Positions 5,006-12,676 of a stretch of DNA of 64,000 nucleotides are shown piece after piece (the stretch's first letter is position 1; every line of letters begins with the position of its first letter). A program made the position numbers and the translations under genes. The notes beneath the pieces were generated by a model that was not told the DNA's origin, made no database searches, and saw only the letters and a program-made list of their open reading frames with translations. This DNA comes from Calothrix anomala FACHB-343 (GTDB lineage: Bacteria; Cyanobacteriota; Cyanobacteriia; Cyanobacteriales; Nostocaceae), in contig NZ_JACJQG010000016.1 of NCBI RefSeq assembly GCF_014696435.1, forward strand, positions 89,714-153,713, in the 5' to 3' direction.

Positions 5006-7669
5006 ATGAATTCGCCCTTTATTCTCACTATTGCTGGAATATTTGCAACTACACATCTGATATTGACTCAACCTTGTTACCCCCAGGCGATCGCCCCAGA
5101 TGGTAGTCTGAATACAAATGTTACTTCTACTGATGGGTTAAATTTTTCCATTACGGGTGGTAATCAAGCTGGCGGTAATCTTTTTCATAGCTTTAGCGAA
5201 TTCTCTGTACCTAATGGTGGTTCTGCTAATTTTAATCATGCAGCCTTTATTCAAAATATTATCAGTCGCGTGACTGGGATCGTGCCTTCTCATATCAATG
5301 GCATAATCCATACTCAGGGAAATGCTAATTTATTCTTAATTAATCCTAATGGCATTATTTTTGGTGCTAATGCCAAATTAAATATTGGTGGCTCATTTTT
5401 GGCAACTACTGCTAAAAGTTTACAGTTTGCCGATGGCAAAGAATTTAATACAAATATAGATAAAAATCCTCCATTATTAAGTATTAATGTTCCTATCGGA
5501 TTACAATTTTCTAGTAATTCAAAACCTATCCAAGTACAAACAGCTAATCTGAGAGTTTCCATCAATCAAACTCTCGCCCTGATTGGTGGTGACGTTAATA
5601 TTAATGGCAGTCAATTAACTGCCGATAGCGGTCATATTGAACTCGGTGGAATAGCCGATGCAGCCACGGTTGGATTTTCATTAAACGCGAATCATTCACA
5701 ATTCAATTTTCCTGACAATATTAACAGAGCTAATGTATCAATCACAGATAATTCTTTAGTCACAACCAGTGGTGATGGTGGCGGTAGCATTCAACTGACA
5801 GGAAAGCAGTTAATTATTGAAAATTCCTGGGTAAAAGCGGATACATTAGGTAATATTTCTGGCGCAAATTTAAAATTAAATGCTTCAGATTCAATCATAG
5901 TTTCAAGCAACAGAACAACCGGACTGTTTACAGATGGATTATTTGCCACAACTAGTGGTAGTGGTGATAGCTTAGGCATCACAATTAATACTAGAAATCT
6001 TCAGGTTAAAGGCGAATCTCGCATATCTACCGCTACTTTAATAGGTTCATCTGGTAAAGGAGGTAATTTAACTATTAATGCGCAAGCAGCAGTTGAATTA
6101 ATGGGTGCTGACTCTGATGATTTTTCTTTATTTACTGGGTTATTAGCAGATACTTCTGGAACTGGTAGCGGGGGAAATTTAACAGTAAATACCGGGCGAT
6201 TATTCGTGCATCACGGAGCGCAAATATCTGCTGCAACTATAGCAGATGCCACAGGTGGAAACTTGACAATTAATGCTGCTAATAGTGTGGAATTAATCGG
6301 AGTCACAGATTCTGATTCCTTCAGTAGTGGTTTGTTTACAGCAGTTCAAGAAGGTAAAGGACAAGGTGGTGATTTAATAGTTAACACTAAGAAGTTAATT
6401 ATTCATGATGGGGCACAAATTTTTGCAGGTACTGCAGCCGCAGGAAATAGTGGAAATATTATCATTAATGCTATAGACTCTGTCAACGTCAGCGGAGTAT
6501 CCCTGATTCAGAAAATTCCTGGTGGTCTTTTCAGTGGTAGTAATCCCAATACTACTGGCAATGGAGGCAATATTAACATTAATACGCGGGAATTAATAGT
6601 AGAAAATGGAGGTAATATTGCTGTTGAAACCCTTGGCTCTGGCAAGGGAGGAATCCTCACAATTAATGCCACTGATGCTATTAAATTAATAGGGCAAGGT
6701 TCGCTGAGAACAGATCCGTTAGATGAAAGCAAATTAATCCCAACATTTAGTAGCCTATCTGCTAGCGTTTTAGATAGTGAAAATCATCATCCGGCTGGTA
6801 ACTTAGAAATTTCTACAGGTAAATTCTTAGTTCAGGGCGGTGCTAGGTTAAGTGTAGATAACGAAGGTAAGGGTAAGGGGGGAAATATTAATATTCAAGC
6901 TGACTCTATAGAACTAGATAATAGAGGGAATCTACAACAAGATTTAGGAGGAATTCAAGCCACAACTAAATCTGGTGAAGGAGGTAATATTATCTTACAT
7001 ATTCAAGATATTTTATTAATGCGGAACGGTAGCAAAATTACTACTGATTCTACAGGTGGTAATGGTAATGGTGGAGATATTAATATTACTTCTGGGTTAT
7101 TAGTTGCTGCTGATAATAGCGATATTACAGCTAATGCAATTGCTGGTAGAGGTGGGAATGTGCAAATTACAACGCAAGGAATATTTGGGATTGAATTTCG
7201 TCCCGAACTCACTGATAAAAGCGAAATTACAGCTAGTTCTCAGTTTGGTTTAAGTGGAACTGTAGAAATTAAAACTTTAGCTGTCGATCCTAGCAAAGGA
7301 ATTGCTGTTTTACCAACACAGCCAAATGATGCTTCAACATTAATTACTCAAAGTTGTGGACAAAATAATCCCGCAACATCCAGCCGTTTAACTATCATTG
7401 GAAGAGGTGGTTTACCACAAAATCCAGAGGTAGCTTTGGGTGGGGATCTCACTTTGCAAGATATCCAAACAGTCCCCATTTACAGCAGTAGCGATCGCAC
7501 TAGAGGAGTTACTGCTTTTGCCAGTCTACCACTACCTCACTCTGATGAAATTGTCGAAGCTCAAGGACTGATAGTAACGCCCCAAGGAGATGTTGTTTTA
7601 ACTGCACAGGTACTAGTACATACCCCTCATAATTCTGGATTACCCTCAGCTACTTGTAATTCAAATTAG
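5006..7669 (+). CDS. Filamentous-haemagglutinin N-terminal domain exoprotein (two-partner secretion TpsA type)
   Basis: I start at the ATG at 5006 (MNSPFILTIAG, 887 residues) because it opens directly into a signal peptide (about 1-28, ending near the CYPQA motif); the TTG at 4988 lies upstream of that. The N-terminal 30-180 region has the TPS secretion-domain motifs: GGNLFHSFSEF, SRVTG, NANLFLINPNGIIFG and ANLNIGGSFLATTA-like text. The rest is a repetitive beta-helix with many GGNL/GGNI-x-I-N/T repeats and ends in an ESP-like cyanobacterial C-terminal region. It would be exported across the outer membrane by a TpsB (Omp85-type) partner, which is not in this window. The role (adhesion, biofilm, competition) cannot be told from sequence. 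Confidence 0.88.
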   Translation: MNSPFILTIAGIFATTHLILTQPCYPQAIAPDGSLNTNVTSTDGLNFSITGGNQAGGNLFHSFSEFSVPNGGSANFNHAAFIQNIISRVTGIVPSHINGIIHTQGNANLFLINPNGIIFGANAKLNIGGSFLATTAKSLQFADGKEFNTNIDKNPPLLSINVPIGLQFSSNSKPIQVQTANLRVSINQTLALIGGDVNINGSQLTADSGHIELGGIADAATVGFSLNANHSQFNFPDNINRANVSITDNSLVTTSGDGGGSIQLTGKQLIIENSWVKADTLGNISGANLKLNASDSIIVSSNRTTGLFTDGLFATTSGSGDSLGITINTRNLQVKGESRISTATLIGSSGKGGNLTINAQAAVELMGADSDDFSLFTGLLADTSGTGSGGNLTVNTGRLFVHHGAQISAATIADATGGNLTINAANSVELIGVTDSDSFSSGLFTAVQEGKGQGGDLIVNTKKLIIHDGAQIFAGTAAAGNSGNIIINAIDSVNVSGVSLIQKIPGGLFSGSNPNTTGNGGNININTRELIVENGGNIAVETLGSGKGGILTINATDAIKLIGQGSLRTDPLDESKLIPTFSSLSASVLDSENHHPAGNLEISTGKFLVQGGARLSVDNEGKGKGGNINIQADSIELDNRGNLQQDLGGIQATTKSGEGGNIILHIQDILLMRNGSKITTDSTGGNGNGGDINITSGLLVAADNSDITANAIAGRGGNVQITTQGIFGIEFRPELTDKSEITASSQFGLSGTVEIKTLAVDPSKGIAVLPTQPNDASTLITQSCGQNNPATSSRLTIIGRGGLPQNPEVALGGDLTLQDIQTVPIYSSSDRTRGVTAFASLPLPHSDEIVEAQGLIVTPQGDVVLTAQVLVHTPHNSGLPSATCNSN

Positions 7670-8186: not shown

Positions 8187-8753
8187 ATGCTAAGTAACTC
8201 CCAGAATTTAACCAGTACAGAAAGTCTGATTGCAGATCTCAACGATCAAGAATTAGCCGATTGTGTCGGTGGCTGTGATATTGCAGTTACTCTTGGGGAA
8301 CAAGAGGTAGCAACAGTCCCACTAGTTGAATCAAAATTATTAGGCTATACCAGTATCAATGCAGGCGTGAAAATTATCAATCAAGCTCTAGATTTAGGAG
8401 TCACTTACGATCCTAATGGCTCAAAGCGCTTCTTGAGCGATCGCAATGTCAAAGAAGCCGTCGCTGAGATTGATGTTCACGATATCCTCAAGGGAATTGT
8501 GGATTTACCCATCACCACTTGGAAATATAAAAACCAAGATGAAACAATTCGTCATATAGGCCCGATGGCGCAAGACTTTGCAGCGACGTTTAACTGTGGT
8601 GAAAGCGATCGCTTTATCAATGCTGTAGATGCTAATGGTGTCGCTTTAGCTGCAATTCAAGCACTTTACCAACTGATGCAGCAAAAAGATTCCCAAATCA
8701 GAGAACTGCAAATACAGTTACTGCAACTACAGCAACAGATAACTGATAAATAG
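8187..8753 (+). CDS. GG-leader protein with C-terminal S74/endosialidase-chaperone-like domain (copy 1)
   Basis: The 188-residue protein begins with a leader of RiPP/bacteriocin type, LIADLNDQELADCVGG (residues 14-29), ending in Gly-Gly. A variable segment follows (about 30-77: one Cys at 30, several Ser/Thr). From about 78 to 165 there is a domain with the layout of the intramolecular chaperone of endosialidases and phage tail spikes (Pfam Peptidase_S74): GSKRFLSDRNVKE, W-K-Y-K, RHIGPMAQDF, VDANGVALAAIQALYQ. A C-terminal coiled coil (165-188) is rich in Gln and Leu. In known S74 proteins the coiled coil and chaperone help trimerise a fibre, and cleavage occurs before the Ser of the L-S-D motif. 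Next to copy 2 and a TOMM cyclodehydratase, it may be a modified or exported substrate; that role is inference. Confidence 0.8.
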   Translation: MLSNSQNLTSTESLIADLNDQELADCVGGCDIAVTLGEQEVATVPLVESKLLGYTSINAGVKIINQALDLGVTYDPNGSKRFLSDRNVKEAVAEIDVHDILKGIVDLPITTWKYKNQDETIRHIGPMAQDFAATFNCGESDRFINAVDANGVALAAIQALYQLMQQKDSQIRELQIQLLQLQQQITDK

Positions 8754-8829
8754 GCTCAATTTATCGCAAAAATGCCATTAATTAGCCAATATTGTCCATA
8801 TCTAATTTCAAACGATCATCAGGAAAATT

Positions 8830-9360
8830 ATGTACAATGATGACCAAAACCCTGTACCCACAGTCAGCTTAATTGAAGAATTAACGGATGATGAATTAGC
8901 AAATTGTGTTGGCGGTACTGGCTATATTAATCCTGCAGAACAAGAAATTCCTGGAAATCATGGCACACTAAACGCTCTCGGTTTACAGGATAACCTACAT
9001 CTATATTTAGATCCTGATGGCTCAAAGCGTTTCTTGAGCGATCGCTATGTCAAAGAAGTTGTAGCTGATGTCGATGTTCAAGCTATTCTTTTGGGAATTG
9101 CCAATTTACCCATAACTTCTTGGAAGTATAAAAACCAGGATGAAACAATTCGCCATATCGGCCCGATGGCGCAAGACTTTGCGGCAATTTTTAACTGTGG
9201 TGAGAGCGATCGCTTTATTAATAGCGTAGATGCTAATGGTGTCGCTTTAGCGGCAATTCAAGCACTTTATCAAAAAATACAAGGGCAAGATTTACAAATC
9301 AATAGCCTAAGTCAGCAAATTAGCGAAATAAAACAAAATTTGCTAATCAAGTCCCAATAA
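8830..9360 (+). CDS. GG-leader protein with C-terminal S74/endosialidase-chaperone-like domain (copy 2)
   Basis: A 176-residue paralogue of the preceding gene. The leader is SLIEELTDDELANCVGG (13-29), with Gly-Gly at the same residues (28-29) as copy 1. The middle segment (30-60) is shorter and quite different: it has no Cys or Ser and only two Thr, so few residues could form azoles. The S74-like domain (from about 64) is nearly identical to copy 1 (FLSDRYVKEV, W-K-Y-K, RHIGPMAQDF, FNCGESDRF, VDANGVALAAIQALYQ), and the end is again a coiled coil. The pattern of conserved leader, variable middle and conserved tail is what a duplicated substrate family would show. Copy 2 ends 53 bp before the TOMM enzyme gene, which suggests co-transcription. 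Confidence 0.8.
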   Translation: MYNDDQNPVPTVSLIEELTDDELANCVGGTGYINPAEQEIPGNHGTLNALGLQDNLHLYLDPDGSKRFLSDRYVKEVVADVDVQAILLGIANLPITSWKYKNQDETIRHIGPMAQDFAAIFNCGESDRFINSVDANGVALAAIQALYQKIQGQDLQINSLSQQISEIKQNLLIKSQ

Positions 9361-9413
9361 ATTCTTGTTTTCGCAAAAAACCTTTACTGTGTTTATATTG
9401 CACAGCAAAAATT

Positions 9414-11639
9414 ATGCTCATCCAGCCGAAGTTTTACGAGCATTTTCATATTGAATTATCTCCTCCCAAAACTGTATTTTTATTAAGTGAAAAAGGGCAT
9501 TTTGTCCTGAATGGGCGTTTATATTACCTTTTAGCACCCCTACTTAATGGACTTTACACAGTAGAGGAAATCATTCAACAATTGCAAGGACAAGCTAAGG
9601 CTGATGAAATTCTTTATGGTTTAGAACAATTGCATCGTAAAGGTTATATTACCAACGCAGATAACATTCCACCTCATGAATCTGCTTTTTGGGGACTGCT
9701 AAATCAAGATGCTAACTCGGTTACCCAAGCGCAAAAAGCAGCTAAAGTTAGCATTACCACCTTTGGTAGCGTCAAATCACAGCCATTAACTGCAATTTTA
9801 GAATCTCTGAATATTCCCTTGGCGGATACTGGTAAATTTGCTGTGGTGGTTACAGATGACTATCTTCAACCAGGATTAGCACAATTTAACCACGAAGCTT
9901 TACAACAGCAGCTTCCTTGGTTATTAGTCAAACCTGTAGGTAGTGTAATTTGGATTGGCCCCATTTTTCGTCCTGGCGTTACAGGTTGCTGGGAATGTCT
10001 CGCACAGCGTTTAAGAATGAATCGTGAGGTTGAGTCTTTTTTACAAGAACAAAAGCAAACCCTCAACCCATTTTTGATTTCTCGTGCGGCGTTACCTTCA
10101 ACTGTAGATACTGCGCTGAATTTAGCAGCTACAGAAATTGCTAAATGGTTAAGTAATCCCGAAAATCATACCCTAGAAGGGACATTATTAACTTTTGATT
10201 TAATCAATCTCAATATTCAACGCCATACTTTAGTTCGTCGTCCCCAATGCGATTGTTGCGGCGAAATAGCCTATCAGCAACCACAACCTCAACCATTGGT
10301 ATTAACTAGCCAACCCAAGCAATTCAGCGATGATGGGGGGTATCGCAGTTGTTTACCAGAGCAAGCTTGGCAAAATTACGAACATCATATAAGTCCGGTA
10401 ACTGGCGTAATTAAAAATATATTTCAACCCTTCCAGAACAACGAGCTGATTCACGCCTATGTTGTTGAGCATAGTTTACCGTATAAAGGCAGAAGGTTAG
10501 AGGATTTACGTCAAAAAAGCTTTGGTAAGGGGAAAACAGCCGCCCAAGCGAAGATGAGCGCCTTAGGCGAAGCAATTGAACGCTATTGTGGAGCTTTTAC
10601 GGGAGAAGAACCAAGGGTGAAAGCTGCTTATGCTAATTTGCAAGAATTGGCGATTCATCCTGATAAGTTTATGCATTATAGCGCCAATCAATACCGCGAT
10701 CGCCAAATTTGGAATCAGCAACACCATGTTATTCAATGGATACCCGATCCCTTTGATGAAAGTCAAGAAATAGAATGGTCGCCGCTTTGGTCGCTAAATC
10801 AGCGACAATTTAAATATCTGCCAACAGCCTATTGTTATTATGGCTATCCTCTCCCAGAAAACCACAACTTTTGTTTTGCAGATACTAATGGTACAGCTGC
10901 GGGAAGTTGTAAAGAAGAGGCTATTCTTCAGGGATTTATGGAATTAGTCGAGCGGGATGCAGTAGCTATTTGGTGGTATAACCGACTAGCAAAACCTGGG
11001 GTAAATCTCCAAAGTTTTGACGAGCCGTATCTAAATAAATTACATACATACTATAAATTTATCGGTCGTGATTTGTGGGTATTAGACTTAACTACCGATT
11101 TAAATATTCCCACATTCGCTGCAATTTCTCGCCGCTACAATCAACAGCCAGAAGATATTTTATTTGGCTTTGGTACTCACTTTGATGCCAAAGTTGCTCT
11201 GTTACGTGCTGTTACAGAAATGAATCAGATGGTATTTCTCTCTAGTGGTGGAAATCCTCAAGCTTCTGCCAAATTTAGCCGTCAAGATATACAGTATTGG
11301 TGTACGACTGCTACATTAGAAAATCAGCCTTACTTAGCACCGGATATTAATGCTAGACTCAAAGTTTACACAGATTATGCTCCCTACCATAGTAATGATT
11401 TGCAACAAGATGTAATTAATTGTGTAAATTTAGCTGCAACAAAAGAGCTAGAAATATTGGTTCTAGAGCAAACACGCCCAGATATTGCTATACCTGTTGT
11501 GAAAGTTGTGGTTCCCGGCTTGCGTCACTTTTGGGCACAGTTTGCACCAGGACGATTGTATGAAGTTCCCGTAAACATGGGATGGTTAAAAGCAGAACTT
11601 CCAGAAACTCTGCTTAATCCAATTCCTATGTTTTTGTAA
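9414..11639 (+). CDS. Fused TOMM cyclodehydratase: leader-binding/ThiF-like domain plus YcaO domain
   Basis: This 741-residue protein fuses the two parts of a TOMM (thiazole/oxazole-modified microcin) cyclodehydratase. Residues 1-85 look like a PqqD/RRE-type leader-binding winged helix (GHFVLNGRLYYLL, LEQLHRKGYI). Up to about 290 is the E1/ThiF-like part, with a putative zinc site from C192, C195, C279 and C282 (CWEC and CDCC). From about 345 is the YcaO domain: SFGKGKTAAQAKMSALGEAIERYCG, DTNGTAAGSCKEEAILQGFMELVERDA, and a C-terminal Pro-rich tail ending PIPMFL, as in azole-forming YcaO proteins. YcaO enzymes use ATP to activate peptide amides, giving azolines from Cys/Ser/Thr or, in other clades, thioamides or amidines. 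No dehydrogenase, protease or transporter gene is adjacent, so the product is unknown. Confidence 0.88.
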   Translation: MLIQPKFYEHFHIELSPPKTVFLLSEKGHFVLNGRLYYLLAPLLNGLYTVEEIIQQLQGQAKADEILYGLEQLHRKGYITNADNIPPHESAFWGLLNQDANSVTQAQKAAKVSITTFGSVKSQPLTAILESLNIPLADTGKFAVVVTDDYLQPGLAQFNHEALQQQLPWLLVKPVGSVIWIGPIFRPGVTGCWECLAQRLRMNREVESFLQEQKQTLNPFLISRAALPSTVDTALNLAATEIAKWLSNPENHTLEGTLLTFDLINLNIQRHTLVRRPQCDCCGEIAYQQPQPQPLVLTSQPKQFSDDGGYRSCLPEQAWQNYEHHISPVTGVIKNIFQPFQNNELIHAYVVEHSLPYKGRRLEDLRQKSFGKGKTAAQAKMSALGEAIERYCGAFTGEEPRVKAAYANLQELAIHPDKFMHYSANQYRDRQIWNQQHHVIQWIPDPFDESQEIEWSPLWSLNQRQFKYLPTAYCYYGYPLPENHNFCFADTNGTAAGSCKEEAILQGFMELVERDAVAIWWYNRLAKPGVNLQSFDEPYLNKLHTYYKFIGRDLWVLDLTTDLNIPTFAAISRRYNQQPEDILFGFGTHFDAKVALLRAVTEMNQMVFLSSGGNPQASAKFSRQDIQYWCTTATLENQPYLAPDINARLKVYTDYAPYHSNDLQQDVINCVNLAATKELEILVLEQTRPDIAIPVVKVVVPGLRHFWAQFAPGRLYEVPVNMGWLKAELPETLLNPIPMFL

Positions 11640-11734: not shown

Positions 11735-12676
11735 ATGAAGTTTAAGATAACTAGCGATCAAGCTAGTATTTTCCCATCTAAAAGACAACCATTTATCGGC
11801 AAAAGTTATCAAGAAAATTTTGTGAATATTTTTGATGCTTATCCCGATTTGATTTTGTTAACAACCTTGGGCAAGGGTTCTTGCGTAGAAGTAAATCAAA
11901 CTTTTTTAAATATCACAGGCTACAGCCGGGAAAATGTCATCGGTACGCCAATTACAGTTTTGGATATGGGATTAACCATTGACAGTTATGCGCAAATCAA
12001 AAAAAAGTCCCAGACACAGGATTTTATCCAAAATTTAGAAATTGAATTTTGTTTAAAGTCTGGGGAAAAACGCATCGGGTTGCTATCTGTTAAGCGCTTA
12101 GAATGGTTCGGCAAAACTTATTTACTAAATGTGATTCGTGATATTACAGAGCGGAAACAAATAGAAGATGATTTACGCCGCATAGCTATGCACGATCCCT
12201 TGACAGGTTTACCCAATCGGGCTTACTTTATGCAGCAATTAGATTATGTCATTGAATCGCTGCAATATCATCCTGATTCTTGTTCTTATATTCTCTTTTT
12301 AGATTTGGATGCATTTAAAGCAATTAATGACAATTTCGGTCATGCTATGGGAGATAAATTATTAGTTGAAATTAGTCAGAGGCTCAGAGCAATACTCAGA
12401 TGGGGAGATTTTATTGCGCGTTTAGGTGGTGATGAATTTGTGATTCTGCTGGAGGATGTGCAAAATTTTCGTTATGCTACGCGCATTGCTAATCAAGTAA
12501 TTACTGCACTTAAACAACCAATGTTATTCAATGGGCAGAAAATTTCTTGTTCGGTGAGTATTGGGATATCCATGATTTCTGATGCGGAAAAATCACCGGA
12601 GGAAATATTAGATAAAGCTGATGCGGCAATGTATCAGGCGAAAGCGTTTGGTAAGAGTCGGTATCATGTGGGTTAG
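11735..12676 (+). CDS. PAS-GGDEF protein, probable diguanylate cyclase
   Basis: Makes c-di-GMP from two GTP, presumably under control of its sensor domain. The 313-residue protein has one PAS domain (about 28-145: FDAYPDLILLTTLGKGSCVEVN, FLNITGYSRENVIG, then the PAC tail DITERKQ) and a GGDEF domain (about 150-312: HDPLTGLPNR, FLDLDAFKAIND, GDKLL, ARLGGDEF, MYQAKAFGKSRY). The catalytic motif G231-G-D-E-F is intact. A product-inhibition I-site R-W-G-D (222-225) lies the canonical five residues before it. There are no membrane segments. It begins 95 bp after the TOMM gene on the same strand; a functional link is possible but unproven. Confidence 0.92.
   Translation: MKFKITSDQASIFPSKRQPFIGKSYQENFVNIFDAYPDLILLTTLGKGSCVEVNQTFLNITGYSRENVIGTPITVLDMGLTIDSYAQIKKKSQTQDFIQNLEIEFCLKSGEKRIGLLSVKRLEWFGKTYLLNVIRDITERKQIEDDLRRIAMHDPLTGLPNRAYFMQQLDYVIESLQYHPDSCSYILFLDLDAFKAINDNFGHAMGDKLLVEISQRLRAILRWGDFIARLGGDEFVILLEDVQNFRYATRIANQVITALKQPMLFNGQKISCSVSIGISMISDAEKSPEEILDKADAAMYQAKAFGKSRYHVG

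Follow-up and report, generated by a model that had tools for sequence, protein, structure and literature searches.

Precursors of ribosomally synthesised and post-translationally modified peptides (RiPPs) usually consist of a leader and a core, and separate proteases make the ends of the product. The Peptidase_S74 domain is best known from phage fibres. Both features meet in a locus of Calothrix anomala FACHB-343, contained in the 64,000-nucleotide stretch analysed here (G000:C53:89714-153713 within a 9.24-Mb genome, hereafter the window). Two adjacent genes encode proteins A and B (P0001 and P0002), each with a leader ending in Gly-Gly, a short core and a C-terminal S74 domain, and they lie between the gene for an exoprotein of the filamentous hemagglutinin (FHA) type with a two-partner-secretion (TPS) domain and the gene for a fused YcaO heterocyclase. 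We regard this locus as one example of a RiPP-type system that recurs within a narrow taxonomic range, always has an FHA neighbour and is unusual in its follower, which probably cleaves itself. On balance, it appears to make azoline-type RiPPs from precursors whose C-terminal follower removes itself.

The closest described systems each resemble a part of this locus. L(X)4L is the motif by which the cyanobactin precursor PatE binds the heterocyclase LynD and by which an NHLP leader binds MprC, according to the relevant section of PMC12455567, and azole precursors of the Nif11 and NHLP types in cyanobacteria are the subject of PMC2887384. In the portion of PMC10885120 dealing with bottromycin, the precursor has no canonical leader and its follower is removed by a separate amidohydrolase. 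The catalytic Ser of MyRF and endosialidase is paired with a Lys at the fifth position after it, cleavage of MyRF takes place directly before that Ser and only in the trimer, and S74 domains normally assemble trimeric fibres, as set out in the sections of PMC8326128 on these proteins. Among the matches listed in open-licence papers, none joined S74 or an intramolecular chaperone with YcaO or RiPP, and the main text of PMC4603692 contains no mention of S74, hemagglutinin or double glycine.

The YcaO heterocyclase and its clade

The 741-residue protein encoded at 9414..11639 (+) matches the NCBIfam models TIGR03604 (263 bits, cut-off 219) and TIGR03882 (172.5 bits, cut-off 36.9), Pfam YcaO (E 1.2e-97) and an N-terminal winged-helix model, and it is homologous over its whole length to MusD, LynD and TruD (E 9e-221 to 4e-209). 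The CWEC, CDCC and NPIPMFL-tail hallmarks named in the preliminary description are all present, and its assignment as a fused cyclodehydratase of thiazole/oxazole-modified microcins (TOMM) agrees with both NCBIfam models. Judged from these matches, the protein is a fused RiPP recognition element (RRE)/E1-YcaO heterocyclase of the LynD/TruD/MusD family, that is, a YcaO cyclodehydratase with its E1/RRE partner as in azol(in)e RiPPs (TOMM or linear azol(in)e-containing peptides). Besides this whole-length relationship, likeness to cyanobactin pathways extends to the L(X)4L motif of PatE-type leaders, with the difference that here the leader ends in Gly-Gly and the precursor carries an S74 follower. 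No PatA/PatG-type protease or macrocyclase gene was seen by eye among the neighbours, where no profile search was made.

A tree of 33 YcaO proteins, in which 15 of the 18 outgroup loci fetched are represented, separates the 18 members of this group from the others with support of 100/100. The outgroup loci, whose YcaO proteins are at most 56% identical, encode in 16 of 18 cases a precursor of the Nif11 type (5 loci) or the NHLP type (11 loci), 6 of these scoring above the NCBIfam cut-off and 10 below it (E 3.5e-6 or better), and in L115 and L171 no such precursor was spotted by eye (L-numbers denote loci and G-numbers genomes, G000 being that of the window). These sister lineages share with the present system a Gly-Gly site and a similar leader end. 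The present leader, in contrast, is short and has no Nif11/NHLP match (none in NCBIfam for P0001, P0002 and the short precursors L106:8770 and L108:11439), and a SagB-type dehydrogenase gene is found in 0/18 clade loci versus 10/18 outgroup loci, on flanks of unequal length. Since an FMN dehydrogenase, required for azoles only, is missing from all 18 clade loci within the fetched flanks, the products should contain azolines and not azoles, except where such an enzyme acts in trans. Oxidation in trans would be possible in the window's genome, given its above-cut-off matches to TIGR03605 away from the locus.

Linkage and co-occurrence of precursor and YcaO genes

The YcaO clade comprises 18 genomes, 17 of them with readable upstream DNA (the G002 locus ends at a contig end), and in all 17 at least one GG-leader precursor gene and an FHA/TPS gene adjoin the YcaO gene. 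In L004 (Tolypothrix FACHB-123), which lies outside these 17, a precursor pair and a YcaO gene are likewise present; its two precursors are excluded from the count of 29 linked precursors used below and included in alignment A1. Among 218 Nostocaceae genomes, with at most 15 candidate places scored per genome, a YcaO protein of at least 70% identity occurs in 15 (next best 56%), and exactly those 15, but none of the other 203, have a precursor match that extends into the leader, two further Nostocaceae genomes matching the precursor over the S74 part alone. A sample of 388 genomes of the class gave precursor matches in 8, with the leader covered only in G000, G003 and G077. The closest named relative in the genome scan was Calothrix brevissima NIES-22. 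Flanking genes vary between groups of loci, hence the conserved unit consists of FHA, precursor(s) and YcaO. Of this unit, the precursor and YcaO part had been recognised previously, and the FHA/TPS neighbour and the S74-free versions described below had not.

Because of the 17/17 linkage in a supported clade and the 15/15 co-occurrence, the pairing of precursor and YcaO genes is, on comparative sequence grounds, not a matter of chance, and a reading of them as chance neighbours is disfavoured; the worry raised earlier that no other genome might pair these genes has not materialised, as all 17 readable loci do so. A YcaO protein acting on some other precursor, with the S74 genes as unrelated neighbours, would have a precedent in the Nif11 and NHLP precursors of the 16 outgroup loci, but we hold it very improbable in view of the linkage, the co-occurrence with no leader-reaching match in the other family genomes, and the RRE-binding motif carried by the leader itself. 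That the GG-leader proteins are substrates of the YcaO protein is, at the other end of the scale, highly probable.

Leader, core and the DPNGSxR motif

The genes for precursors A (8187..8753, +) and B (8830..9360, +) were confirmed as open reading frames (ORFs), and the coordinates and frames given earlier for the pair and for the YcaO gene are correct. The leaders, residues 1-29 in each (8187..8273 and 8830..8916, both +), end in the Gly28-Gly29 already reported for both, and the leader consensus proposed at that time is exact apart from the usual variation (LIADLNDQELADCVGG, LIEELTDDELANCVGG); L(X)4L corresponds to L18-L23 in A. Across the 29 linked precursors, L(X)4L occurs in 28 leaders and L(X)4I in the remaining one, and the Gly-Gly site is universal, followed by Cys in 23, Thr in 5 and Gly in G026, which reads GGG. 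Each core contains at least two Cys/Ser/Thr residues, so the adjacent precursor has both an RRE-binding leader and a Cys/Ser/Thr core. To this extent the RiPP logic of leader, variable core and modification enzyme proposed in the preliminary description holds.

The core of A spans residues 30-83 (54 residues; 8274..8435, +) and ends in DPNGSKRFL, its limits being set by the Gly-Gly and S74 sites, and that of B spans residues 30-69 (40 residues; 8917..9036, +) and ends in DPDGSKRFL. The motif [DN][PT]x[GQ]SxR is present in 29/29 linked precursors and in all five unlinked short ones, and its narrower form D[PT]x[GQ]SxR in 28/29 linked precursors. The narrower form is absent from all 34 foreign S74 proteins whose site could be read, and the idea that DPNGSxR simply belongs to S74 domains was rejected on this ground. 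In 4 of the 29 cores, the motif Ser and the residue after Gly-Gly are the only Cys/Ser/Thr. Should the YcaO protein act on these cores, the Ser of the motif would be the best candidate for a target shared by all of them.

The Peptidase_S74 follower

The follower of A comprises residues 84-188 plus the stop codon (8436..8753, +), with S84 and K89 as the expected Ser-Lys pair, and that of B residues 70-176 plus stop (9037..9360, +). Pfam Peptidase_S74 matches residues 84-135 of A (E 8.6e-11, 42.4 bits) and 70-121 of B (E 7.2e-10, 39.5 bits), against a cut-off of 22, and the precursors of G003 and G848 also score above the gathering cut-off; the S74 assignment, earlier made from the residue layout and left to a profile search, is thereby borne out. 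A profile built from 47 S74 regions finds MyRF entry 7dc3 (E 5.7e-4), with Ser and Lys in register, 7dc3 being a non-cleaving form of MyRF as judged by its sequence; a PDB sequence search with alignment A1 gave nothing significant. The domain is thus like the autocleavage domains of endosialidase and MyRF in its above-cut-off Pfam match and its Ser-Lys pair, and differs from them in its setting, since it follows a GG leader and a short core in a protein encoded next to YcaO, where theirs belong to a fibre or a transcription factor.

SDRxxK, with Ser and Lys five residues apart, is kept in 21/21 linked precursors that carry S74, as expected of an active cutter. The 34 foreign S74 proteins were chosen for having SDxxxK, so the invariance of the site among them is no evidence. 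If S74 did not cut, its trimer might serve to present three cores to the YcaO protein while another protease made the C-terminus, as a C-terminal helical region that could trimerise and the existence of S74 proteins devoid of the site (in 30 of 64 foreign loci no SDxxxK was seen near the match) would allow; the unbroken retention of SDRxxK speaks against such a scaffold, which we consider quite unlikely. Self-cleavage, with the S74 domain discarded, is the probable outcome. As a side observation, the small S74-related proteins of L034-L067, many from Rhodococcus and relatives, have about 130-220 residues and no SDxxxK close to the match, and are probably non-cleaving.

The phage association of the domain, and the label tail fiber domain-containing that other database records give to such proteins, would suit a remnant of a phage tail fibre. 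Against this stand a search of 50,697 phage records with P0001, which gave no match at E 1e-5, and the conservation of an operon-like unit in many genomes, and we attach next to no probability to it. A phage origin is also disfavoured in that the 64 non-cyanobacterial loci lie on contigs that belong to genomes of bacterial species. Among the matches listed for the phylum sample, most S74 frames have several hundred residues, and a few have fewer than 200, some of these at contig ends.

S74-free precursors and the fate of the follower

The linked precursors fall into 21 long forms with S74 (a pair in every one of nine genomes from the same genus, and one each in G848, G847 and G003) and 8 short forms without it (two each in G321, G077 and G855, one each in G776 and G026). 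The leader-middle-S74 architecture of the preliminary description therefore stands for 21 of 29, S74 being absent from the other 8. A third, unlinked precursor, also short, is present in G722, G723, G724, G725 and G359 (L226-L230), all of the same genus; as read from ORFs, it always has the same chromosomal context, beside genes resembling ribosomal proteins. Short forms share leader and core with the long forms. In long forms, two residues separate the motif Arg from SD (three in G848 and G847 and five in G003, by reading), and from the motif Arg to the stop there are 5-9 residues in linked and 4-5 in unlinked short forms; all 13 short forms end 2-7 residues beyond the expected self-cleavage point.

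The ratio of non-synonymous to synonymous substitution rates (dN/dS) of short cores is 0.16-0.27 for G321/G855 versus G077, and by this measure the short precursors of these three genomes are under purifying selection. In pairs of long forms, dN/dS, calculated on few sites, is 0-0.54 (mostly at most 0.3) for S74 and 0.14-0.88 for the core, and within one genome A and B are much more alike in S74 than in the core.

Whole S74 proteins might instead be exported to form short trimeric stalks outside the cell, as partners of FHA, with S74 assembling a multi-chain product and YcaO decorating the stalk. The usual role of S74 domains in assembling trimeric fibres (PMC8326128, in the part cited above), the FHA neighbour in 17/17 loci and the finding that, in many comparisons of long forms, no part is under stronger constraint than S74 are all in line with such fibres. 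They are nevertheless unlikely, given 13 related precursors without S74 (8 linked, 5 unlinked), purifying selection on those of G321, G855 and G077, and a core of merely 40-54 residues. Because these S74-free relatives exist, an S74-bearing fibre is probably not the final product, and because they end beside the cleavage point, self-cleavage and removal are favoured. Of the two roles, assembly or self-cleavage, earlier envisaged for S74, the second is accordingly the one we favour.

Proposed pathway

From the architecture, the linkage, the leader motif, the Ser-Lys pair and the S74-free forms, all of which can be read in the sequences themselves, we infer azoline chemistry, cleavage, export and an FHA partnership in the following order. 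The GG leader would dock via L(X)4L on the N-terminal winged-helix/RRE region of the YcaO protein, as PatE does on LynD, and the latter would cyclodehydrate Cys/Ser/Thr in the 40-54-residue core, with the invariant motif Ser (DPNGSxR) and the Cys/Thr next to Gly-Gly as the best common candidates. The S74 domain would trimerise through its C-terminal helix and release itself by cleavage directly before S84 (in B, before S70), so that the core retains two residues past the DPNGSxR motif. A C39 peptidase/ATP-binding cassette exporter would then remove the leader at Gly-Gly and export the core, which would probably act with the FHA/TPS exoprotein. It is likely that the core bears azolines.

Several points weigh against this pathway. 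The plain alternative for the motif Ser is that a structural (beta-)turn, and not chemistry, accounts for its conservation, and a Cys/Thr after Gly-Gly, once cyclised with the Gly carbonyl, could by reasoning no longer be separated from the leader by a C39 peptidase. The C39 exporter lies within the fetched flank in merely 5 of 17 loci (G726, G381, G077, G026 and G003, where it is an NHLP-type double protein); away from the locus, the window's genome encodes three C39 exporters that are 60-63% identical to that of the G381 locus. The short form of G776 may be a dying gene and not a functional short form, since its dN/dS versus G381 is 1.1 (leader) and 1.28 (core) and decayed traces of S74 follow its stop (24 bits in each of two frames); weak traces are also seen in G077. 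The existence of S74-free forms shows S74 to be dispensable somewhere. An AlphaFold model of P0001 from 16 sequences was unusable (pLDDT 46.5).

The FHA neighbour and flanking genes

The gene order in the window is FHA/TPS exoprotein, precursor A, precursor B, YcaO protein and PAS-GGDEF protein. The FHA/TPS gene lies at about 5006..7669 (+; ORF from TTG 4988, first ATG 5006) and encodes a two-partner-secretion domain (PF05860, 8.1e-62). Its orientation is that of the unit in 15 loci and opposite in G026 and G003. Compared with the own-genome FHA-like frames of loci L177-L206, the window FHA protein is the reciprocal best hit of the FHA proteins in 16/16 other loci, with a clear margin in 15 (686-1585 versus 414-476 bits) and a thin one in G003 (545 versus 532 bits). 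In whole-frame comparison, the best own-genome FHA paralogue scores 434 bits. A gene for a ShlB-type TpsB occurs in the flank of 3 of the 18 clade loci. The balance tips slightly towards a product that works with the FHA protein, and its constant presence would tie the modified peptide to an exoprotein that is secreted or displayed on the surface, a context in which azoline chemistry is unusual. The window's genome is rich in FHA-like frames (86 matching pieces).

The PAS-GGDEF gene (11735..12676) directly follows the YcaO gene. A counterpart of similar N-terminus and length stands after YcaO in all nine same-genus loci and was not seen in clade loci outside these.

Parallels in other systems

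A comparable layout was found in L063, from a metagenome-assembled genome (MAG; Acidimicrobiia nzgw82). A 140-residue S74 protein with a lasso-type leader (NF033521, 16.0 bits, below the cut-off of 19) occurs there together with a second copy in tandem, the identity over residues 15-140 being 77% (L063:7890-8273 and 8341-8763), directly followed by PqqD (PF05402, 4.7e-17) and then by an asparagine-synthase-type lasso cyclase (NF033535, 244 bits, E 2.9e-72, below the cut-off of 525). The leader-core-S74 layout beside an RRE gene is shared with the Calothrix locus, which differs in having YcaO where L063 has a lasso-type leader and the asparagine-synthase-type cyclase. Among 296 genomes of its class, the whole protein is present in its own genome only, the other 295 yielding one match to the S74 part, and L063, being one MAG, is possibly an assembly error or a rare oddity.

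Independent recruitment of S74 into azoline (YcaO) and lasso-type pathways, as a self-cleaving follower that keeps the precursors trimeric during modification, then detaches itself and thereby defines the C-terminus of the product with no separate protease, is a tentative proposal to which we give a little less than even weight. Bottromycin offers the nearest likeness in that a precursor part C-terminal to the core is removed; there it involves a separate amidohydrolase and no canonical leader, whereas in the present system the protease is likely to be the follower. If true, a follower that is both protease and oligomeriser would represent a novel way of processing precursors that could be used to release peptides whose C-terminus is defined, and the natural S74-free versions offer a ready comparison for the contribution of the tail.

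In addition, five contigs from Acidobacteria, Chloroflexi and Thermomicrobiales (L019, L021, L030, L038 and L043) have an S74 site directly after a short Cys-rich stretch, and no RiPP enzyme was seen by eye beside L019, L021, L030 and L043. These frames have about 1000 residues in L019 and L021, 475 in L043 and 231 in L038, that of L030 being a contig-end fragment. Roseobacter plasmid proteins resembling the lasso-S74 protein of L063 have roughly 400 residues and, on two of three plasmids, stand beside type II secretion genes.

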